DNA of 64,000 nt from Rhizodiscina lignyota (Eukaryota > Ascomycota > Dothideomycetes > Aulographales > Rhizodiscinaceae): positions 310,001-374,000 of the forward strand of contig ML978139.1 of the NCBI GenBank assembly GCA_010015805.1, given 5' to 3'. Shown one piece after another: positions 18,082-62,404 of the stretch (position 1 is the stretch's first letter; every line of letters begins with the position of its first letter). The notes below the pieces were generated by a model that was not told where the DNA came from, searched no databases, and saw only the letters and a program-made list of their open reading frames with translations. Made by a program: the position numbers and the translations under genes.

Positions 18082-18818
18082 CGTTCCACACGAGCTTGAT
18101 GGTCTAGAATCGGTAATCTCGAAGTCTCCTGGCGCGTTTTCTATGCCGCGAAGTCGCCATTTTCAACTTACGGAGCGGACCATCCAGTCAGTGATGAGGG
18201 GTTAAACGAGGAGGGTCCATCGCGACGCGTGGGATTTAAAATCGATAGCATTTGGAGAACCATCGACACCGACAATGCAGTTCCCCGACTCGCCGCTGGC
18301 GTCGAATTGGCTGGGGGAACCATGGTGCATGAAGCACAGGTGATTGCGGAGTTGACGCCGCTTGCAAGTGATCCAATTGGTAATGTCTCATCCAATGGGA
18401 TGTTCCGCAGAAGATTTCGAAAATCCCAAGGGCTAAGGAGGCAGCCAAGCGCCGCACCGGAAGAATGATAATCCGAAAATTGTTTTCGGGGTCTCAGGGG
18501 ACGTCGACGTCGACCTACGTCACAGCATGACTTCCATTTGCGATAACCTGGATGATCTGCACGCGCGCTCCAGACACGGCGTCCGCGGAGCCTCATCAGG
18601 GTCTGTGGCAGGATTTCTGTCGTCAGAAACTTGGACAAACTTGGTGACGATCGGAGATGACGACCTTGCCTCTAACGTCAAAGGCAGCGTGGCTGTGGGA
18701 AAATTAGGTATAAGTATAAGCATAGAGTCGCCATTGCTTCTTCTCCAGTTCAAATCTAAAATCATACATCCTCCTGTCTACTCATCAACCTACCAAAGCA
18801 AATCATATTCCATCTATA
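18082..18818. promoter_or_regulatory. Divergent promoter region of the F-box gene and the Gly/Met-repeat gene
   Basis: 737 bp. Contains AGGGG motifs near 18195 and 18495, which match the fungal stress-response element core, and a pyrimidine-rich stretch just before 18819. Significance uncertain because five-base motifs occur by chance. Confidence 0.35.
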
Positions 18819-19406
18819 ATGGATTCTCAGCAGTCAATGGATTACTCCAACCAGTCAATGGATTCACAGCAGCCAATGGACTCTCAGCAGTCAATGGATC
18901 CTCAGCAGCAGCAGATGGGCGGCCAGATGGGCGGCCAGATGGGCGGCCAGATGGGCGGTTCGCAGATGGGCGGTTCGCAGATGGGCGGTTCGCAGATGGG
19001 CGGTTCGCAGATGGGCGGTTCGCAGATGGGGGGTTCCACTGGCGCTCCCAAGGAGGACTACCTCGACAAGGGTATGCCATCCTCACTCCACAACCCATTC
19101 CTGCGTTAGACTGACATACATTTCAGGCCTCGATACCGCTGAGAAGAAATTTGGCGGCCAGTATGGCATGGGCGACCCTCAGAAGATGCGCAGCACCAAC
19201 GAGAAGATTGTAAGTGGCTTCATAATACCTGAAGTCGAGATCACGCCGGCCACGCCTCCTGTTTAAGGTCCGCCCTGCCTTGGACCGACGTTTTTCTACA
19301 TTCTGAAGTCGTGAGCTAACGATTGAGTGTTGGATAGACCGACGGTGCACGCGGCATGTTCGAGAAGATGACTGGCAAGAACGTCCCGGACAAGGTTTCC
19401 AACTAG
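18819..19406 (+). CDS. Small Gln/Met/Gly-repeat protein with conserved C-terminal module
   Basis: Exons 18819-19071, 19127-19209, 19338-19406; introns 55 and 128 nt. Product 134 aa. N-terminal half is low complexity: MDSQQSMD-like repeats, then three QMGG units and six QMGGS units. The C-terminal half (GAPKEDYLDKG, TAEKKFGGQYGMGDPQ, KMRSTNEKITDGARGMFEK) has the look of small hydrophilic stress-associated proteins common in ascomycetes, but I do not know an assigned function. The tandem DNA repeats are open in several frames, which creates large spurious ORFs on both strands; the frame chosen is the one continuing through both introns into the conserved C-terminus. Confidence 0.8.
18913..19032. 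repeat. Coding minisatellite, 12-bp then 15-bp units
   Basis: CAGATGGGCGGC repeats about three times, then CAGATGGGCGGTTCG about six times, encoding QMGG and QMGGS. The switch in unit length without loss of frame indicates expansion by slippage under coding constraint. Boundaries approximate. Confidence 0.85.
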
Positions 19407-23578: not shown

Positions 23579-25878
23579 ATGAAGTTGCTGGGGCTCGCTG
23601 CGGCGGCTGCAGTGACATTGCCGTCGCTGGCTGCAGCTAAATACGCCCACGAGGCAAAGGCTGTTGCTCCTCGAGCATGGTGTACGTCAACCAATCTTCA
23701 TTCTCTTGATAGGCAGCTCACATACCAGCAGACCCAAAGTACAATACAACCACGCCAAGCTTGACCTCTTCGAGCACTGAAGAATCGGCGACGCCGACCG
23801 CCTCGCTCTGCACAACCACCGTCCCGGTTGTCGAGTACATTCCCGCCATCTCAACATCGACTGTCTACTCAACTTCCGAAGTGACAATCACAAGCTGCGG
23901 CCCAGAGGTCTACTCCTGTCCGGCACACTCCACGGCGATTGTCACTTCATACGTGGCAGTTTCGACGACAATCTGTCCCCTGACGTTGACAAGCTCTTAC
24001 TCCACTGTGATCACAACCATCACGGTTCCGGCCCATTCCCCTTCGACCATATACAAGACACACTCGGTCACGGTCACGTTGTCTCAGAGCCTCCCGCCGG
24101 TCTACGTGCCACCATATGGAAAGCCAGGCTCTTCAGCACCTCCAGTGTATTCGAAGCCAGGCAGCCTCTCAGGCTCTTCCTCGTCTCCGCCGTTGTACTA
24201 CACATCGGAGAGCTTTTCCACGCCGACGCATTTGTATTACTCGCTGAAGAGCAAATCCAGTTCGACTCCATCTCCGCATTGGTACGGGTACGGAAGTGTC
24301 TCAAGCCAATCCAGTTCAACTTCTCCACCAGTGTACTACGCACCAAAGAGTGAGTCCAGCTCTTCCTCGTCGCCTCCGGTATATTACACGCCGAAGAGCA
24401 AGTCCAGCTCGACTTCGCCTCCATGGTACTACTTCTCGAGTCCGTCGAGTAAGTCCAGCTGGTCTTCGTCCCCACCAGAGTACTCAACTCCAAGCTCAAG
24501 CTCGCCTTCGGCCTACCATGAACACAGCTCTTCCTCTCTTCCAGTGTACACGCAATGGAAAACGGCAAGCTCGAAGACTTGGGAGCGTTCAGAGTCCAAG
24601 CCACCTCCATACACGGCGCCGCCTTACGGATCTGTGCCGCCTTATGGATCTGCGCCGAAGCCGTCGAGCTCAACTCCAACATGGCATGTCTATTCCTCAA
24701 GCATAACCTGGACACTGCCTCCTTGGGTCCCACCATCAAAGGAAACGACTTGGACAACAGCAACAATCACGGTGCCTTGTCCCGTATGCCACGAGTCGAC
24801 GACAACAACCTGCGTAACTGTGCCAGTTATTCCACCGCCTCCAACTTCTTGGTATGAGTCGCCGCCTCCATCATCCTCTTCAACCCCGGCACCACCTCCA
24901 CCACCGCCTGTCTCGGTGCCTTCATACGTCTGGATAAGCCCTCCTGTTTCGCTATCGTCCTGGAGTTCGTCAACGCCTGTGCCACCACCACACTCTCCAT
25001 CTCCGTACTCTCCTCCATACATTTGTATCACTCTCACTCCGACAACCACACCACCGGCTCCGTACTGGACACCCACAAGCTCTTCAACATCTCTGCCTGG
25101 GCATCCTCCACCGCCAGCGACTTACTCCAAGCCACCGGTCAGTCCACCACCATACGTTTCTCCTCCATCGTCACCAAGCAGCACGCCAAAGTATGGCCAG
25201 CCACCTTCAAGCACGTCAACATACGGCGCACCACCTTCAAGCGCTCCGTCAACATATGGACCTCCTCCAGCGTCGCCGCCTTCAAGCAAGCCACAAACGT
25301 ATGGACCCACCACAGCATCACCTCCTGTTCGCACGCCGTCAACATATGGATCACCGGCTTCCAGCACTCTGCCAGCATACGGAACGCCAGCTTCCAGCAG
25401 CCCGCAGACATACGCACCTCCGGCATCGCCTCCTGTAAGCAGCACCCCAACATACGGACAGCCTCCAGCAACTCCATCTGTCTACACACCTCCAGCGGTT
25501 CCAAGCGAATCGAAGATAACGGTTACGGTGATCCCGAGTCCTGTGCCCTCATCTTATTCTGTTTCCGGTGTACCGCCAGGCTATGGGGTATCAATCATTG
25601 TGCCAAGCTCAACGACCATCGTCATTCCACCATACACGACACCAAGCTCGCCCGAGAAGACGAAGTCTCTTGCTCCTCCAGCATACACTCCGCCGTATGC
25701 ACCACCTGCAAGCAGCACACCAGGCGCTCCGACTACACCAGCTGGCCCAGCGCACCCTGGAAACGTCACCGTTCCAACATCGCCATACACAAGCCTTTAC
25801 ATGAGCAAGGCTTCACTGTCATTTGGCACTGCTTCCACGGTGCTCATTGCGGCCATGGCCTTTGTGCTCTTCTACTAA
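23579..25878 (+). CDS. Large Pro/Ser/Thr-rich GPI-type cell-wall protein (adhesin-like)
   Basis: Exons 23579-23681 and 23729-25878; intron 47 nt. Product 750 aa. Seen: signal peptide MKLLGLAAAAAVTLPSLAAA; an N-terminal Cys-containing beta-rich segment (CTTTVPVVEYIPAISTST, TITSCGPEVYSCPAHS, TTICPLT); then about 550 residues of Pro/Ser/Tyr repeats such as SSSSPPVYYTPKS, interrupted by a second Cys block (CPVCHESTTTTCVTVP); and a hydrophobic C-terminus (ASTVLIAAMAFVLFY) typical of GPI signals. Comparable fungal proteins are heavily O-glycosylated wall or adhesion proteins. The low-complexity DNA keeps other frames open for up to 305 codons. Function in adhesion is inference from architecture. 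Confidence 0.85.
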
Positions 25879-48222: not shown

Positions 48223-49084
48223 ATGTCGTCCGACGCTGAAGTAAAGACTCTATGCGAGGAAATCAAGAAGAATTTTTCAGCGTGTGATGTAATCCTTCTT
48301 TCCACTCGAATGCTTCAAAATGCCAACCTTATGCACTACAGGTGTCAGACGCTCTGCTAACGCTGCACGTGCCTTCTGCGGGTCTGCTCCCGGATATCCG
48401 TATGCCTTCCTCAAATATATTATGGAAGTGAACTTTATTTTCCCCTAATAGATTTTGCTAGACCCAATACCGCGACAGAAGTACTGGTACACTCGTATCG
48501 TTGCGCCCATCAGCACGGTCGTTTTCGTCCCGACAGATCTCTCGCCAGGCAGCCCGTTATGGATTGAGGGCGTCCCAAAGGAGTCCAATATCCCGGCAGG
48601 AAAGCACTTTACAGACATTCCTCCCCCAGGATCCATTCTACTGGAGCATAATCCAAAAGATCAGCTCGTGGCGCTGTTCGGTGATATTGTCGCCACACGT
48701 CTCAAGACCCGCGGCGTTCTGGGTGCCATTGCTAACGGCCGTGGACGCGATTTTGTTTCTTCCGACAAGGTCTGTGATGAGAACTTTACCATGTGGTGCA
48801 AGGGTCTAAGTACCGTGGGCACGTCGATGGAGGCGAAGCCGTGGGCTGTGGACGTGCCGGTCAAGATTGGGAAGGTGGAGGTTAACCCGGGAGACATCAT
48901 GGTCGCGGATGAAGGTGAGAGGGGAATTGCAGTCATTCCGAGGGATAAGCTGAAGAAGATTGTTGAAATGCTTGCGGTGCAAAAGAAGGCAGATGATGGG
49001 CTGCTGAATGACGTAAGGAATGGACAGAGCATGGCGGATGCGATTAAGAATTGGCCGGAGCATTATAGTGTTCAGCCACACTGA
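48223..49084 (+). CDS. RraA-like protein (HMG/CHA aldolase or oxaloacetate decarboxylase type)
   Basis: Family of class II pyruvate aldolases (4-hydroxy-4-methyl-2-oxoglutarate aldolase) with oxaloacetate decarboxylase activity; bacterial RraA is an RNase E inhibitor. Exons 48223-48288, 48342-48399, 48462-49084; introns 53 and 62 nt. Product 248 aa. Seen: CDVSDALLTL early helix, GLLPDIHPIP across the second splice, RIVAPISTVVFVP, then the metal/substrate signature GDIVATRLKTRGVLGAIANG followed by RGRD, and DVPVKIGKVEVNPGDIMVAD, VIPRDK. The acceptor used is the second of two TAGs (48461); the first gives the wrong frame. Possible role in aromatic-ring catabolism; inference. Confidence 0.88.
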
Positions 49085-49345: not shown

Positions 49346-49867
49346 CTACAGATCATGTTCTCTCTGTGGCCACCGAAACAAGTCCATATACTTCTCGACA
49401 AAGTTCAGATCCGTCGTCATCGGGCCCGTAATCCGACTGTCAACTCGGCGATCTCCATTCGAATAGGTCCTATGTTTACGAGAAAGGCTCTCGATTTCGG
49501 CGTCCTCCATTCGCCTGACGGGCCAGAAATCCATAATATCCAATGCGAACTCCCCAGCCGAGGTCAAGGCCTTCCTCGCGGCTTGCCTCATAGCAACCCA
49601 ACGCTCCCCCAATATTGACGTTTTAGAAACACTGCATCCGGATGTCCCAAAACATTCCGGCTCTGCTCTGGTCCGGTGCCCGGTGCAGCGTGTATTGCGA
49701 CATATCCAGAGTCCTTTCCAGCCGACGACTGAGTTAAACCAGTCGCTATACGAAAAGCACTCCTGACATGATGGAGCTCCAGCGCGAAGATGCTCGCCGA
49801 CTAAGTGCTCGGGAATGTCTTTGAGTTTTAGTGCCGATGGGTACGCTGGTGAGGCGAAGTTAAACAT
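49346..49867 (-). CDS. Cys/His-module orphan protein, paralog 1 (variant lacking first Cys)
   Basis: Not recognised; 173 aa, single exon. It has the shared module: H26, C34, C37, C56, C61, H64, C72, with WICRNTRCTGHRTRAEPECF as core. The first position, Cys in the other copies (C-x-H), is Gly24 here. Next the block LTSAGEFALDIMDFWPVRRM and a C-terminal MTTDLNFVEKYMDLF-RWPQ segment. The last twelve residues (DLFRWPQREHDL) are identical to paralog 2, so the two are a recent duplicate pair. No signal peptide or membrane segment is seen; probably intracellular. Metal binding is inferred from Cys/His spacing. Confidence 0.8.
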   Translation of the reverse strand: MFNFASPAYPSALKLKDIPEHLVGEHLRAGAPSCQECFSYSDWFNSVVGWKGLWICRNTRCTGHRTRAEPECFGTSGCSVSKTSILGERWVAMRQAARKALTSAGEFALDIMDFWPVRRMEDAEIESLSRKHRTYSNGDRRVDSRITGPMTTDLNFVEKYMDLFRWPQREHDL

Positions 49868-50078
49868 CGTGTTCTTGCGAAGAGAGTGAATTGTTTAACA
49901 AGACTTGATGGAGAAGTATGACCACTCGAGGAACTGTGATGGAATGACAATATTGAGATTTACTGAGGTGTTCTACGCTAACTTGTATTTAAGGTCGATA
50001 AGTTCAGTGACAAGAACGTTTCGAGGTCCGAGAGCATTCACTCAACGTACCATGTCACATCAATTACCATCGACCAAG

Positions 50079-50630
50079 TCAAGTTGTATCATATGACCAC
50101 AGATCATGCTCTCTCTGCGGCCATCGAAAGAGATCTAAAAATCTCTCCACACGAGCAAGATCTGTCACCACAGGCCCTTTCAACTTGCACATGAGACCAT
50201 AATCAGCCGGAGCCAATAGTACGCCCCTCATTGTCGGCCCTGGGCAAGCATGTCGATAATCATCTGCCAACTGCTGGATATGCATATCAGTCATTTCCCT
50301 GACCGGCCAAAAGTCCATGATGATATCGAGAGCCCATTCACCAGCTTGCGGAAGCGCCTCTTGAGCGGTGCCCCTCACAGCGGCCCAACCGCCGATCCAG
50401 CCGTTTTGATATACTATATGCCTTCTACCGAAGCATTCGGGCTCGACTTTTGTTCGATGGCCGTAACAATGCTCGTTATGGCATTTCCAAAGGCCAGAAG
50501 TAGAGCAAGCGTAGCATTTGCGATTGCATGATGGCTCGCCGGCGCGAATGTGCTCGCATTGTAAATTCTCAGGGACTTCATCGCGATTGACGTCGATTAG
50601 TCGAGTCCATGAAGTGATGCCCGTTGCCAT
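50079..50630 (-). CDS. Cys/His-module orphan protein, paralog 2
   Basis: Not recognised; 183 aa from ATG 50630 (MATGITSWTRLIDVN). The in-frame ATG at 50735 would add 35 residues without counterpart in the paralogs. Module residues: C25, H27, C35, C39, C50, C55, H58, C66; core LWKCHNEHCYGHRTKVEPEC. Then LPQAGEWALDIIMDFWPV, a variable segment, and VVTDLARVERFLDLFRWPQ. The end extends paralog 1's C-terminus by WSYDTT. Same strand as paralogs 1 and 3, 211 bp from paralog 1. Confidence 0.85.
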   Translation of the reverse strand: MATGITSWTRLIDVNRDEVPENLQCEHIRAGEPSCNRKCYACSTSGLWKCHNEHCYGHRTKVEPECFGRRHIVYQNGWIGGWAAVRGTAQEALPQAGEWALDIIMDFWPVREMTDMHIQQLADDYRHACPGPTMRGVLLAPADYGLMCKLKGPVVTDLARVERFLDLFRWPQREHDLWSYDTT

Positions 50631-51107
50631 GATTCCGTTGTAAAGGGAGTTGAAATATAGGAAATATTTGTTTGGCCTCGAAGGAATACCGAGTTTGAAT
50701 CTTTGCAAAAGAACACATTTAAGAGTATGAAACATTCAAACATAATAAATATTAATAGCAATAGCCGGCCTTGTGACAGCCAGTGTCACTATTATGTCCA
50801 TGGGACTACGAAGATATTGTATTTAATTGTGAAACACTGAAGCGCCTTTGTCTTATAATGGAAGCAATGTGATTCAGATCAATTTTTTATTTAGATTCAA
50901 CTTTAGCCTATGAATCTCGCTGCTCATATGAATCTCTCAGTTACCTATTGAGAGCTCGGGAACAGTCATGTATAGACAGATTGGTTATGATAAGCTGCAT
51001 CATCGCTATTCACTCAGCTCATACCTTAATTCTCAGTCTTCCAGCCGCACGACACCAACCCGCTGAAACAATGTAGTAAGTGCGCCGGGAATGGGAAAGG
51101 CGTATCA
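50631..51107. other. Intergenic region in the paralog cluster
   Basis: 477 bp; AT-rich, no gene or repeat recognised. Confidence 0.45.
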
Positions 51108-51650
51108 TCATTCCAGAATCCGGTTCATCCTGGACATGTCCGGTAGAGGGATCCCAGCGGCCCTCTCGAAGTCCCAGACCTTTTGCAAAGCGTCGTCGTC
51201 CTGGTTGACAATTCTCCGACCTGTACTGGCAGTGTCTCCTGCCTGAAACTTTGCTGCCACCTCTCGCACCTGAGCCTCGCTCATGCGGATAACATTATCC
51301 CCGTAAACGATAACCTCGAGTGCCCAGTAGTCAGCAGCTGGAAGCGCATGCTTTGCCTTCGCCCGCTGCTTGCGCCAGAAGTTCAAAGTGTGGTTGTAGA
51401 GGAATGGAGCTGTACCAAAGCACTGGAACTCGCACTTGGTACGGTGGCCAATGCAGTGAAGGTTATCGCATTTCCAAGGACCAGCAGAGGCCCTGGTGTA
51501 GCAACCACCTGTGCAGGCTGGACCTTCAAACATGATGTGCTGGCATCGCATCATCTCGGGGACTGCAGCAACATTGACATCGACACCGTTGATGCGCCAC
51601 GTCGTAGTGGTGTTGGCACTAGACCATTCAGGGTGCCAGTAATCGCTCAT
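51108..51650 (-). CDS. Cys/His-module orphan protein, paralog 3
   Basis: Not recognised; 180 aa, single exon. N-terminus TTTTWRINGVDVNVAAVPEM resembles the leaders of paralogs 5 and 6 (FLINGVEEP, IINGQFENP), showing that an INGxx strand precedes the module. Module residues: C36, H38, C46, C50, C61, C66, H69, C77, with an extra C73; core WKCDNLHCIGHRTKCEFQCF. Second block LPAADYWALEVIVYGDNVIR; third block GRRIVNQDDDALQKVWDFER. No signal peptide. Confidence 0.85.
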   Translation of the reverse strand: MSDYWHPEWSSANTTTTWRINGVDVNVAAVPEMMRCQHIMFEGPACTGGCYTRASAGPWKCDNLHCIGHRTKCEFQCFGTAPFLYNHTLNFWRKQRAKAKHALPAADYWALEVIVYGDNVIRMSEAQVREVAAKFQAGDTASTGRRIVNQDDDALQKVWDFERAAGIPLPDMSRMNRILE

Positions 51651-51815
51651 GCTTGATCGATGAAAGTAGAATAAGTTGGTAATCTAGTGAACCGAAAGAG
51701 GTCTCGAGTGGTATTACCAAGTGACTTGCTTGCTTATAGAACTTCTAGCATAGAGGAAGAGTAGTAGACCGAAGACAAGAAACCGCCCTTCTTTTATACC
51801 TTGACACGTTAACCT

Positions 51816-52420
51816 TCAATGCCCTCTTATGACCCCACCGTTACGCAGAGCGCCTAGATCCATTGCCGCATTGCCGGTACATTCTGCCTTCGCGGATGCC
51901 TCCTTAGGTACTCTATAGGCGCGTAAGCAGGCCGAGTCTCCGTAATTCCCTAATCTCGCGACCTCCACAAGCGCCCTCGCCGCGTACCAATCCGTCACAA
52001 CCTGCCTGCCTATTGCCGTGATGGTTGGATCTGCCTCCTCGTACATCCTCGCGAGCATTGACCACTCGATATTAGGAAAGTGCCTTCACTCCGAGACCTC
52101 CTGAGCAAGTGTCCGTCGGCGATGATCTCGAGTGCACATTTTCCGGCCTCGGGAAGCAGTTCGGTGGTGCGCGCGCGAGTTTTAGTCCATCTTCCGGCTT
52201 CACGATTGGCGTAGAGGCATGGTTGGGGCCGAGGCACTGCTAGCCATACTTAACGAGAGAGCTGAAAGCTTTCGAGGTCTATATAGAATAGAAGACTTCT
52301 TGGGGTGTCCAACGTAGTGCGGATTTTCATATTCCCAAAGGCCGCCTGGAGAAGGCTGCTATCAGCCCTTCCTACAGAGTGGGCCATCTCGGGGATCTAT
52401 TATGACACCGCCACGAGCCT
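51816..52420 (-). pseudogene. Decayed paralog 4 of the Cys/His-module family
   Basis: Segments of the module follow one another in the right order but in different frames: DGPLCRKG then two stops where GCY is expected; WEYENPHYVGHPKK where the family has W-x-C-x-N-x-x-C-x-G-H, both cysteines being Tyr codons; QCLGPN; then RTTELLPEAGKCALEIIADG; and finally GRQVVTDWYAARALVEVARL. At least two frameshifts and two stops. Cys-to-Tyr requires G-to-A changes on the coding strand, the kind left by RIP or cytosine deamination, though random decay can also do it. The last frame stays open to 51816. Confidence 0.75.
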
Positions 52421-52924
52421 CCGGGTGAAGGAGTATAGCAGCCGGCGTTGCTAGCCGCTCCACTTCCTTGCTAATCGCAAAAATGGAGGTCAGCAGAGAT
52501 CGAATTCCGAGACTCGTCGTGCTCCATTCATATCAATATACCACGTCTGGTACTCCCCCGCAGAGAATATTTTGCTTGATGAAATCCATTGGGGATAAGT
52601 GTGAGATTTTTTGGAGAGCTTAATAAATGGCCGAACTAGACAAAAGTAGTAAAATGAGAAAAATGGAACATTTATACTTCCCGAAAAAAGAATATGACGC
52701 AAAAGCCTTCACAGGAAGTCAAGAAAGGTATCGTTTTAAGCGCCAGGTGGAAGCATGGACCTCATGACGATATCTCTTCCAAGCCTTGAGCGCCCTTTGA
52801 GAATATGTCCCATGACGATAGCTCTCTTTCCCACGTCTAATCGGCAGCTGAAACCATGTCTCACGACAATACGTCTTTCCCGCCTCTGGTGGCGTTCCAA
52901 GCCACGATCGATACGCATGCACGT
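52421..52924. other. Intergenic region in the paralog cluster
   Basis: About 500 bp. Short minus-strand frames (60-70 codons) near 52490-52928 have no similarity to the module. Confidence 0.4.
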
Positions 52925-53434
52925 TCAAGCTCGCCCTCGCAGCCTCGCCTCACTTACCATCCACACTGCCGCCCCCAAATCAGTGACCACCTCCGTAGGT
53001 ATACTCGGATGTCCATGACGATACATATCAGCAACATAAGTCCACAACTCCGGATCGTGCCTAAGATCTATCTGTTTCAACCACCCATCACATATCAGTT
53101 CTAGCGCCCAAGATCCGGCAGATGGCAGCACTGTAGTCGCCTGTTGGCGCAAACTACGCCATTGGCGTTCGTACACATGGTTCCATGAATTGAGGCCAAT
53201 GCATTGGAAGTCGTAGCGCCACTCGTGGCCAGCGCAGTACGGGTTATGGCATTTGTAAGGGCCACCGGCAGAGGGGGCATAGCAGCCATTGTGTTCGCAG
53301 GCGTGCCCGACGTACTGGAGATGGTAGCACCTGACTTGTGGTGGAACGTTGTCGGGATTTTCGAATTGTCCATTGATGATGTAGAGCGCTCCCTCGGCGG
53401 CCCCTTCCCACCTTGGGGGATTTGGATCTATCAT
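52925..53434 (-). CDS. Cys/His-module orphan protein, paralog 5
   Basis: Not recognised; 169 aa from ATG 53434 (MIDPNPPRWEGAAEGALYII). An in-frame ATG at 53605 adds 57 residues with no counterpart and is less likely. Module residues: C36, H38, C46, C51, C62, C67, H70, C78; core YKCHNPYCAGHEWRYDFQC. Second block LPSAGSWALELICDGWLKQI; third block TEVVTDLGAAVWMVSEARL. Divergent from paralog 6, with 450 bp between their starts, so they may share a promoter region. Confidence 0.85.
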   Translation of the reverse strand: MIDPNPPRWEGAAEGALYIINGQFENPDNVPPQVRCYHLQYVGHACEHNGCYAPSAGGPYKCHNPYCAGHEWRYDFQCIGLNSWNHVYERQWRSLRQQATTVLPSAGSWALELICDGWLKQIDLRHDPELWTYVADMYRHGHPSIPTEVVTDLGAAVWMVSEARLRGRA

Positions 53435-53884
53435 ACGCGACACCCTGGGAGACGAGGAATTTTCAGAAAGTTGAGGATGTTGCAGGGTTGCTAATAGTTT
53501 AACGGTGATGTGTGGAAACAACTGAGCTGGCACTTGGGGAACATCAATTAAATAGAGACCTGGAAGATCTGTTGAGCCGTAATGACGACCGTTGGGTATA
53601 TTCATAGGTGTATAAGGGGTTCGTTATCAAGTTCGTGGCCTCCAAAGTCGCCGTACAGAGCCGAGCAAAGTTTCGTTGACCCTTTCCGTGACAATGTTGA
53701 TATCACAGATATGTGTTAGCGCTCTGTGGAACGATCAGGGGTCATACGTACCGAAGTCTCCCAGTCATAGTGACCTTGATAAATTCCTCACATCGTTTCC
53801 CACATTAACAGTATCCCCAAGCCTCGCTCTCGGTCGTAGCTTTGTCGTGGATCTCAGGCGATTATCCTTTACTTAATTAGCAAG
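53435..53884. promoter_or_regulatory. Divergent region between paralogs 5 and 6
   Basis: 450 bp between opposite starts; no defined element identified. Confidence 0.35.
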
Positions 53885-55834
53885 ATGTGGAGAACAGCAG
53901 CCTCAACCCAAACCTTCCTCATTAACGGCGTGGAAGAGCCCATATCAACCTTCCCTCATGACGCTAATGTCCGCTGCGCGCACATCCTCAACGGGAGTCG
54001 TGGCTGTCAGCATGGCTGCTACCAGACGCACGAAGATATGCGCGGCGACATGCCCCTCAACTGGTATTGCAATAACGTATACTGCAGCGGCCATCCATCG
54101 AAGTATTATGTGCAGTGCTGCGGCACAACGCCTTGGATTTGTGCCGAGAGAGCGCAATCAGCAATAGATCTATCAGGCGTAGCCGATACCCTCTTGCCGG
54201 GGTGTGATGGTTGGGGTCTGGAGATTATCTGCGATGGATACGCTGACTATCTTGAAAGCGCGGACCATATCCAAGAGGTTGCCATGGGGTATGCTACCGG
54301 GGAGGAAGAGTATGTCGGTGATGGCGCGGTTGTATCCGACTTTCAGGCAGCTGCGCAAGAGGTTGAAAGGTTTAGAGCGAACATGCCGCAATGGTTGAAG
54401 GCTATGGTGCCTGTTCAAGATCGGAGACGAGGTATCGTTCCACAGGAGCTATTGGGTGCAGGCGAAGCACACCAAGTTGGCGGGCAATTGAATAACGTAT
54501 TTGGCGGGAACAACGATGGCCACAGTTTCGATGGAAATGAATTGGGACTGTCGACTACAGAGCACATGACTCGTAATCAGCACATCAGGGGTACTCGGCC
54601 ATCCGCTTCCAATCAAAACCTTGGTGATCCAGGCATAAGAGTCTATGGCCATGGACTTGCTGGCGATGACCCAGAGGTACCGGAGCATGAAGGCGAGTAT
54701 GGCAATGACCCAGATGAGGACGAGGAGGAGGACGGAGAGCAAGACGAAGAGGAAGAGGGTGACGATCAAGAAGGCCAGTCCAGTGGCGAAGACGAGCGTC
54801 AAGCGATTGCTGAATCTCTCAAGGCAGCAAAGGCGGAAAAGGCCGCTGCCACTCGAAGGCAGGCTGAGTTGGAAGCTGAAGAACAACAACAGCTTGAAGA
54901 GATCCAAAGAGTAAGCAGAGAGGAAGCGGTGAGAGCGAGACGTGAGGCAGATATGAGAGATCGCATGGAAGAAGAAGCCTTTATGGCAGAACAAATTAGA
55001 ATGATTGAGGAGCAGGGACGAAAGGAAGAAGCGGCCTTTGCCAAAAACCGAAGAAAGTATGGAGAGATCGAAGCCGCGAAGCAGCAGAAACTAGATGACG
55101 CACAGCTCTTGGAAAATCTTAGGCGGATTGAATTGAGGGAGAAGGAGGAGAAGGAGAAGAGAGAATCTGAAGAAATGGAGATGATACGCCAGACGATTAA
55201 GCAAAGTCTGAAAACGACCGAGACACCTAAACAGAGTGGCACAAACAATGCTCCGAAGTCTAAACAGCGCCCCAGAATGAATGTTGAAGAGCGTCGAACC
55301 AGTAGTGGGGCGCACGCTGTATCTGCTTCCCCAGCGAAACCAGCAAGTCGCAGAGCTGAAGATCCCAGAGCTTCTGTGAAGCCCTCTGCTCAGCCGCAGC
55401 CGATCAAGTCTAGACCAACAAAAAACGGAGCATTGCTTAAGGCTCTCAAGGTACACACCACGAGTGCCTCGAAGCCTGCTTCAAATAATCCAAATTCATT
55501 GCGTCAGCCAAAGACCAAGGCCTCGAACACTCTAACTGTCTCTCAGACTCAGACGAGTATAGTAACGACAACGGTCATGAAAAGCTCCGACATCGCATCT
55601 CGTACATTTGGGAAAGCAAAGAAGACTACCAAAGATGCGGCGACGGAGCAGCAGCGGCTGGGATCTGCGACAACTCCAGATCCTTTGCTGGACGGAACCC
55701 GTGAACAAGCACCGCAACATCCATGGCGTGAAGCCGAGGCTAAGCTAGGTCTTCTCCATAATGAGCATGATAGTCTCCCAGGATACAGTGAAATGGCTGC
55801 TCCTGGAATGAGTATCGAGGCCGACTATGAGTGA
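53885..55834 (+). CDS. Cys/His-module protein fused to UIM-like/coiled-coil region, paralog 6 (649 aa)
   Basis: Single exon. Residues 1-170 are the family module: FLINGVEEPI leader, C31, H33, C41, C45, C62, C67, H70, C78 (plus C79), LPGCDGWGLEIICDGYADYL, and AVVSDFQAAAQEVERFRAN. Residues about 170-265 are Gly/Asn-rich linker; 262-300 is acidic. Residues 302-316 (GEDERQAIAESLKAA) match the ubiquitin-interacting-motif pattern of acidic patch, then A-I-x-x-S-L. Residues 317-425 form a long Glu/Arg/Lys-rich helix, likely coiled coil. Residues 428-446 (SEEMEMIRQTIKQSLKTTE) are a second UIM-like segment. The tail is Lys/Ser/Thr-rich and ends with LPGYSEM, an LPxY-like motif. Known: UIMs bind ubiquitin. 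Inferred: a ubiquitin-linked adaptor whose reader or metal module is the shared domain. Confidence 0.85.
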   Translation: MWRTAASTQTFLINGVEEPISTFPHDANVRCAHILNGSRGCQHGCYQTHEDMRGDMPLNWYCNNVYCSGHPSKYYVQCCGTTPWICAERAQSAIDLSGVADTLLPGCDGWGLEIICDGYADYLESADHIQEVAMGYATGEEEYVGDGAVVSDFQAAAQEVERFRANMPQWLKAMVPVQDRRRGIVPQELLGAGEAHQVGGQLNNVFGGNNDGHSFDGNELGLSTTEHMTRNQHIRGTRPSASNQNLGDPGIRVYGHGLAGDDPEVPEHEGEYGNDPDEDEEEDGEQDEEEEGDDQEGQSSGEDERQAIAESLKAAKAEKAAATRRQAELEAEEQQQLEEIQRVSREEAVRARREADMRDRMEEEAFMAEQIRMIEEQGRKEEAAFAKNRRKYGEIEAAKQQKLDDAQLLENLRRIELREKEEKEKRESEEMEMIRQTIKQSLKTTETPKQSGTNNAPKSKQRPRMNVEERRTSSGAHAVSASPAKPASRRAEDPRASVKPSAQPQPIKSRPTKNGALLKALKVHTTSASKPASNNPNSLRQPKTKASNTLTVSQTQTSIVTTTVMKSSDIASRTFGKAKKTTKDAATEQQRLGSATTPDPLLDGTREQAPQHPWREAEAKLGLLHNEHDSLPGYSEMAAPGMSIEADYE

Positions 55835-61509: not shown

Positions 61510-62370
61510 TCACAGAAGCAACACCAAGCTCATACAAAACACAACCACAGGCAATACCATGATGTACAGACCGCCGGTGACGCTCGTGGTCCCCGAAGGC
61601 AGATACGCTTGCGCACCAAAGTCGTCTGCACTTAAGTTCACCGCGCTCTTATTCGCCCGACAGTACATGCCTCCAAACAGCGTCCTATTATCCAATCCAT
61701 TCCCATCTTTCATCATACATGCCTTGAAGCTTCCCAACGTCTGATCTACTGTCAAATTCCCTGCGCCATCAGCACCATCTCCTCTCGGCAGTACGCAATA
61801 TTCATAGCAGTCTGTCACATCTAGCTTCAGCGGGGCAGGATCGCAGCATTCCTCAAACGAGTGTATATTCGACGCATTCAACAATATCGCGCATCCAGCA
61901 TGCGGATCGACGTAACCGGCAAGATCGCTCTGCCTTGGAGGCCACGCAGTAGCACAGGAATCGAACGTCGAAGTCGGAAACGATGCGTCTGTACCGGTTG
62001 CTGTCGCAGTCCCAAAACCGTCGTCGTCGCCAGAACCAGGTGATGAGCTCACGACATGCGGCTTCGCGCTACAGTACAGCACCTGCACAGTCGTCGTACC
62101 ATCCTGCTCAAGGCAGCTTTTCATGTAACTATACGCATCGTCGTCCGTTCCGATCGCCTCATCGAACTCCGCATTTAGGCTAGACGGGAGATCGCACCAG
62201 GAGTAGCATGGGTTCTCGGAGAAGACGTGCGGCTTCTCGGGCGCGCAACAGGTCGCAAAGCGAGTGTAGTTTGTTGCAGTCGAGCAGGAGTAGTAGTTCG
62301 AGGACGAGATGGAAGGGATGCCGAGCGCGAGGAGAGTGTCCACGGACAGTGGACAAGAAGAGTTGCTCAT
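61510..62370 (-). CDS. Surface protein with duplicated Cys module and C-terminal anchor, 286 aa
   Basis: Not recognised. Two tandem modules: residues 41-100 (CC41-42, C55, C59, C86, C100) and 175-237 (CC175-176, C188, C192, C218, C237), both with CC...C-x3-C and similar surrounding text (ENPCYSWCDLP versus VTDCYEYCVLP). They are joined by an Asp/Gly/Thr/Ser-rich linker and a further Cys pair (C139, C160). Several N-glycosylation sequons (NSS, NYT, NAS, NLT, NRT). The C-terminal hydrophobic stretch (GLYIMVLPVVVFCMSLVLLL) suits a GPI signal or TM anchor. No signal peptide is visible at the N-terminus, so an upstream exon may be missing. Confidence 0.72.
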   Translation of the reverse strand: MSNSSCPLSVDTLLALGIPSISSSNYYSCSTATNYTRFATCCAPEKPHVFSENPCYSWCDLPSSLNAEFDEAIGTDDDAYSYMKSCLEQDGTTTVQVLYCSAKPHVVSSSPGSGDDDGFGTATATGTDASFPTSTFDSCATAWPPRQSDLAGYVDPHAGCAILLNASNIHSFEECCDPAPLKLDVTDCYEYCVLPRGDGADGAGNLTVDQTLGSFKACMMKDGNGLDNRTLFGGMYCRANKSAVNLSADDFGAQAYLPSGTTSVTGGLYIMVLPVVVFCMSLVLLL

Positions 62371-62404
62371 GCCATGGACTTGGCCGGGTTATAGCTCTTT
62401 CAAA

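Follow-up and report, generated by a model that had tools for sequence, protein, structure and literature searches.

The described domains that come nearest to the sequences considered here are two zinc-binding families and one ubiquitin-binding motif. The CCHC zinc knuckle (Pfam PF00098) has the spacing C-x2-C-x4-H-x4-C, and the AN1 zinc finger has the spacing C-x2-C, C-x(1,2)-C-x4-C-x2-H-x5-H-x-C. The ubiquitin-interacting motif (UIM) follows the consensus acidic-hydrophobic-xx-A-xxx-S-xx-acidic. Here, we describe a gene family of Rhizodiscina lignyota whose members carry a Cys/His module that, judged by its spacing, fits neither zinc family, and that no Pfam or NCBIfam model matches above cut-off. 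Five genes (G1–G5) and one pseudogene (the wreck) form an array in the window, a stretch of 64,000 nucleotides (bases 310001–374000 of contig C19, which is 496 kb long, in a genome of 33.4 Mb and 29 contigs), and a distant relative, C5m, lies on another contig. With moderate confidence, we read the module as an interaction unit that works inside the cell and binds zinc at two sites; it would head two long scaffold-like proteins and stand tail-less in an old tandem array.

The module C-x-H-x7-C-x(2-4)-C-x(10-18)-C-x4-C-x2-H-x7-C-x-G is common to G1–G5, with the first Cys missing in G1. The strict regular expression C.H.{5,9}C.{2,4}C.{8,20}C.{4}C.{2}H.{7}C.G, run over six frames of the window, gave four matches, in G2–G5, against a mean of 0.0 over 100 mononucleotide shuffles; G1 was matched only when Gly was allowed for the first Cys (it reads GEH). 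The nearly fixed pattern described in a previous sequence-only reading of this DNA holds for G2–G5, and for G1 apart from the first Cys. In the second spacing, C-x(n)-C, n is 2 in G1, 3 in G2, G3 and G5, and 4 in G4. Between ligands four and five, the linker ranges from 10 to 18 residues, and C-x4-C-x2-H-x7-C is fixed in 6/6 genes. Of the eight candidate ligand columns, seven do not vary across G1–G5, and neither do 18 of the 129 gapless columns. The cluster retains 39/40 candidate ligands and C5m 8/8, three of which (C, C and H) belonged to the motif by which C5m was selected, so that 47/48 are kept over six genes; Cys and His at set spacing across paralogues are what is expected of a zinc domain. 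An INGxxxxxxxVP-like segment, predicted to form a short beta-hairpin, precedes the ligands in G3–G5 and is weaker in G1 and G2. The VVTD-like block, earlier described as shared, can be read clearly in G2, in G4 and in the wreck, but G1 has MTTD, G5 has VVSD, and G3 has an altered version.

All five reading frames were confirmed at the coordinates of Table 1 and are open and intronless. The five genes were linked by phmmer, with a best E-value of 2.7e-38 (G2 query, G1 match); the G5 query found G1 at E 0.0041, and the weakest direction, from a G1 query to G5, gave only E 0.065. In protein searches of the genome itself, G3 and G2 were matched at E 4.7e-25, and G3 and G5 at 3.5e-16; identity over the matched parts was 52% for G1/G2, 37% for G2/G3, 41% for G3/G4 and 34% for G3/G5. 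In the tree, the grouping of G1 with G2 was firm (100/99 and 99/94). Since neither the root nor the placement of G5 was firm, G5 is not claimed as the founder. Frames, regular expression and phmmer agree on five genes with a common module, accompanied by a wreck, as had been proposed.

Codon alignments of the module genes, in which G5 was trimmed to its module, provided 10 pairs. Synonymous differences exceeded non-synonymous ones in 10/10 pairs, the proportion of the former (pS) being 0.71–0.89 and of the latter (pN) 0.34–0.55, which lends no support to the diversifying pressure suggested earlier. The synonymous distance was saturated in seven pairs and 2.1–2.5 in three. Because synonymous change is saturated or nearly so, while non-synonymous change is lower, the duplications must be old and the proteins constrained; this is an old family under purifying selection. 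Such saturation would mask episodes of diversifying selection.

Sequence comparison also indicates that the family is not confined to the cluster. Eight protein queries of the genome (seven cluster proteins or cores and one majority consensus) gave matches at E<=1e-3 that all fell inside the cluster, but C5m, on contig C5, makes the earlier idea of a local family incomplete. A DNA pattern for C-x-N-x2-C-x-G-H occurred genome-wide at 10 places, comprising the five cluster genes and five others, with two for the reversed control. At one of the five others, the module of C5m reads C-A-H, C-x3-C-Y, C-G-N-x2-C-x-G-H, x7, C. From its first His to the following Cys the gap is 3 instead of 7, and the segment preceding its ligands aligns with the hairpin of G5. 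The five-gene profile scored C5m at 23.1 bits, compared with 13.9 for the best of 2000 shuffles in which the selecting motif was held; the other four off-cluster places scored at most 7.7 bits. A single hhalign comparison for C5m gave E 3.3e-6 over an alignment that takes in the hairpin segment. As a query in its own genome, C5m retrieved C5m alone, so single-sequence searches give no link between C5m and the cluster, and more distant members may be missed. The protein queries also gave weak matches outside the cluster at C4:509991 (E 0.0027, with three stops) and at C15:37825 (E 0.61), which contain no Cys/His module on the correct strand and were rejected as relatives.

Table 1. Members of the family and their Cys/His cores (window positions unless a contig or locus is named; aa, amino acids).
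Feature	Position	Strand	Description
G1	49346..49867	-	173 aa; module with Gly in place of first Cys; nearest relative G2
G2	50079..50630	-	183 aa; 8/8 ligands; further in-frame ATG upstream at 50735
Cys/His core of G2	50427..50558	-	regular expression
G3	51108..51650	-	180 aa; 8/8 ligands; C-terminal block altered
Cys/His core of G3	51414..51545	-	regular expression
Wreck	51816..52470	-	module fragments with stops, spread over three frames; between G3 and G4
G4	52925..53434	-	169 aa; 226 aa if started at upstream in-frame ATG 53605; 8/8 ligands
Cys/His core of G4	53195..53329	-	regular expression
G5	53885..55834	+	649 aa; N-terminal module, then acidic, highly charged, basic tail
Cys/His core of G5	53975..54124	+	C-x-H ... 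C-x-G, regular expression
C5m	C5:2023788		within 355-aa frame; 307 aa from first likely Met; whole module N-terminal
C5m locus	L042 5066-6130, - strand (G000:C5)		

Under the reading we prefer, the module would be a compact unit of about 65–75 residues, in which eight conserved Cys/His, arranged as C-x-H, C-x(2-4)-C, C-x4-C-x2-H-x7-C, come after a predicted short beta-hairpin. Chemically, a pair of structural zinc sites would be likeliest, first C-H-C-C, then C-C-H-C. Intracellular structural zinc is suggested because 47/48 Cys/His are kept, the spacing of the second half is fixed, and a strongly hydrophobic leader is absent. The highest 11-residue Kyte-Doolittle mean at the N-terminus was 1.27 in G1–G5 and 1.39 when the longer G2 and G4 forms and C5m were included; on hydropathy, as distinct from a dedicated predictor, this agrees with the lack of signal peptides remarked on before. 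Two sequential sites are favoured because the first four and the last four ligands form short runs split by a variable loop, although the arrangement may instead be cross-braced. Since we recognised no signature of catalysis, binding is the likeliest role, and the module would serve as a non-enzymatic protein-interaction head. In G5 and C5m, it precedes a long tail that is charged or of low complexity, and these proteins look like scaffolds; in G1–G4, it comes without a tail and with a predicted helical C-terminal part (LPxAGxWALEII and the VVTD-like block). Because the module stands tail-less in G1–G4, these proteins could be partners or competitors of the long form.

Library searches agreed with the view that the domain is an unrecognised one. 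No family member had a Pfam match above cut-off, and the sub-cut-off rows at E<=10 differed between members (DA_C at E 0.0087, HTH_OrfB_IS605 and LodA_C for G3; leishmanolysin at E 0.038 for G5). NCBIfam gave no significant match, its single row having E 0.17. The profile found one PDB sequence, an NADH dehydrogenase subunit at E 0.51, which was taken as chance. Among the titles listed by literature word searches, which cannot catch an unnamed domain, none described such a family. Searches of collections that are non-fungal by description, and hence uninformative on spread among fungi, gave 11 stretches in viral contigs (profile) and 45 in genome contigs (G3 query), none of them confirmed, and no matches in plasmids (G3); five Microbacterium phage records at E 7–9 (G3) were taken as chance. 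Two AlphaFold predictions from five-row alignments reached a mean predicted local distance difference test score (pLDDT) of 54.9 and 56.2, with predicted template modelling scores of 0.52 and 0.50. In both models, helices cover WALEII (pLDDT about 60–83), and the hairpin is given strands of low confidence.

Several results weigh against the proposed zinc-binding interaction module. In both models, the Cys/His part, in which the ligands would have to cluster in space, lies at pLDDT about 38–51, and Foldseek against PDB found nothing below E 2.2 for either. Because this part is of low confidence and Foldseek gave no match, we infer zinc rather than demonstrate it. G1 has lost one ligand, yet its reading frame is open. 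Codon usage is weakly gene-like in G1–G4 (z 0.9–2.0) and in G5 (2.1), and clearer in C5m (4.8); the upstream extensions of G2 and G4 have no codon-usage support (z 0.3 and -1.0, the latter from few codons), and GC content at third codon positions is lower in the G4 extension (0.37 vs 0.56). With the selecting motif masked, the score of C5m falls to 3.2 bits, inside the range of unrestrained shuffles (best 6.7), and the evidence for C5m therefore leans on the motif and its surroundings together; its alignment also includes no clear WALEII part. Finally, the interaction role is suggested by the architecture of the proteins.

The tails raise a different, and in our estimate unlikely, explanation: a ubiquitin-linked adaptor family, in which UIM-like helices of the tail would read ubiquitin while the Cys/His head holds a client. 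Beyond its module, G5 runs on for ~500 residues, acidic and highly charged, then basic. A loose UIM-like expression gave four overlapping matches at two places of this protein, starting at residues 302 and 430, while 5000 shuffles of its tail had a mean of 0.026 matches, and a stricter one matched C5m once (from residue 247; 0/5000 in tail shuffles), but G5 not at all. Both expressions were composed post hoc, and neither finds the motif in G1–G4. Moreover, the Pfam UIM model, run over the whole genome at E<=10, listed nine places, with G5 and C5m not among them, and hmmscan of the two tails gave no UIM row. Two of the nine places are, as we take them by eye from their sequence, FYVE/Vps27-like and epsin-like proteins. 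Part of the G5 tail was weakly matched by mitochondrial IF-2 (best, E 0.052) and by E2 T (0.11), among others, which we took as charged-helix similarity; a C5m tail piece had no matches. Elsewhere in the genome, a 1232-aa frame (L058, G000:C10:719866) has a charged region and, as judged by eye, several stretches that resemble a UIM; it scored 18.5 bits on the Pfam UIM model, under the cut-off. A bolder combination, to which we give little credence, would be a zinc fold of filamentous fungi not listed so far, with two sequential sites on a beta-hairpin, where long members join a client-binding head to ubiquitin-reading helices and the tail-less tandem copies are natural competitors.

It is likewise improbable that these are nucleic-acid-binding zinc proteins, with the second half of the module (C-x4-C-x-G-H-x7-C) acting as a stretched CCHC zinc knuckle. 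The Gly-His pair, a trait of that knuckle, is invariant in G1–G5, and basic residues follow it in several copies (GHRTK in G2 and G3, GHRTR in G1), but this Arg-Thr-Lys/Arg run is not retained in G4, G5 or C5m, the spacing is unlike CX2CX4HX4C, and no member has a Pfam knuckle match at E<=10.

Decay, that is, a dying local family of little present function, would account for the wreck with its broken frames, for the ligand loss in G1 and for the weak codon bias of G1–G4. The wreck, which had been placed at 51816–52420, is indeed present but extends to about 52470. Its best pieces match at E 1.5e-4 (52375–52470, G4 query) and 2.3e-4 (52013–52249, G2 query), and one piece has Tyr at two ligand Cys positions. 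Because two separate pieces, 52375–52470 and 52203–52358, match the CY..W stretch, the wreck is either a partly doubled copy or two remnants. Repeat-induced point mutation was considered as its cause and found unconvincing (TpA/ApT 0.92 vs a window mean of 0.64, standard deviation 0.16; second index 1.22 vs 1.30). As an account of the whole family, decay has a small probability, since five frames are still open at saturated or near-saturated synonymous distance and non-synonymous change is lower in every pair. Secreted, disulfide-bonded, cysteine-rich proteins of the host-interaction type are very improbable: although the genes are small, cysteine-rich, clustered and divergent, with one dead copy, all forms including the longer G2 and G4 and C5m are without a strongly hydrophobic N-terminus (hydropathy only), two invariant His stand among the ligands, G5 has 649 aa and a highly charged tail, and amino acid changes are not in excess.

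The genes of the window are fungal in kind, and include a Zn2Cys6 regulator, a fused tryptophan synthase, frataxin, Pex14 and a P450. An RraA-like gene (48458–49084, + strand; Pfam E 1.2e-17) directly adjoins the cluster. C5m is flanked by an ATE1-type arginyltransferase on one side and, on the other, by a Metallopep-family protein in which a Jacalin match stays below threshold. Three other frames were observed in the window. That at 61513–62388 (- strand), without a Pfam match at E<=0.001, apparently has two diverged cysteine-rich repeats, each closing with a YC block, and a hydrophobic C-terminus, and is possibly a secreted, anchored protein. A long Ser/Pro/Tyr-rich frame with a hydrophobic C-terminus at 23713–25878 (+ strand) resembles a cell-wall or glycosylphosphatidylinositol-type protein, and GC skew is strong there (-0.29 across 24–26 kb). 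A candidate frame at 18437–19114 (+ strand) carries the short direct repeats DGRPDGRPDGR and ADGRFADGRF.

Should the module prove to be a real zinc domain, it would add a family to the fungal gene space that is usually annotated as hypothetical, and the six-sequence seed, which includes a dispersed member with all ligands, can be used for profile searches. Were it common in fungal proteomes, it would be an ordinary domain, as yet uncharacterised, for which a seed is now defined; were it limited to one lineage, it would be a lineage-specific invention. If the preferred reading is true, long tailed proteins and tail-less tandem copies would make it possible to test whether short forms regulate a scaffold.

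In comparison with known systems, G5 and C5m share UIM-like stretches in their tails with UIM proteins (PF02809), but are unlisted by the Pfam model that lists the FYVE/Vps27-like and epsin-like proteins. The second half of the module resembles the CCHC knuckle in its order of C, C, Gly-His and C; it differs in having C-x4-C-x2-H-x7-C in all six genes, in the C-H-C-C set that precedes it (first Cys lost in G1), and in giving no Pfam match at E<=10. Compared with the AN1 finger, the first half consists of C-x-H and C-x(2-4)-C rather than C-x2-C and C-x-C, there is no His two residues ahead of the last Cys, and no Pfam match was obtained, whereas the two are alike in their eight ligands and in sharing C-x4-C-x2-H ... 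C, where the final Cys stands at the eighth residue past the His.

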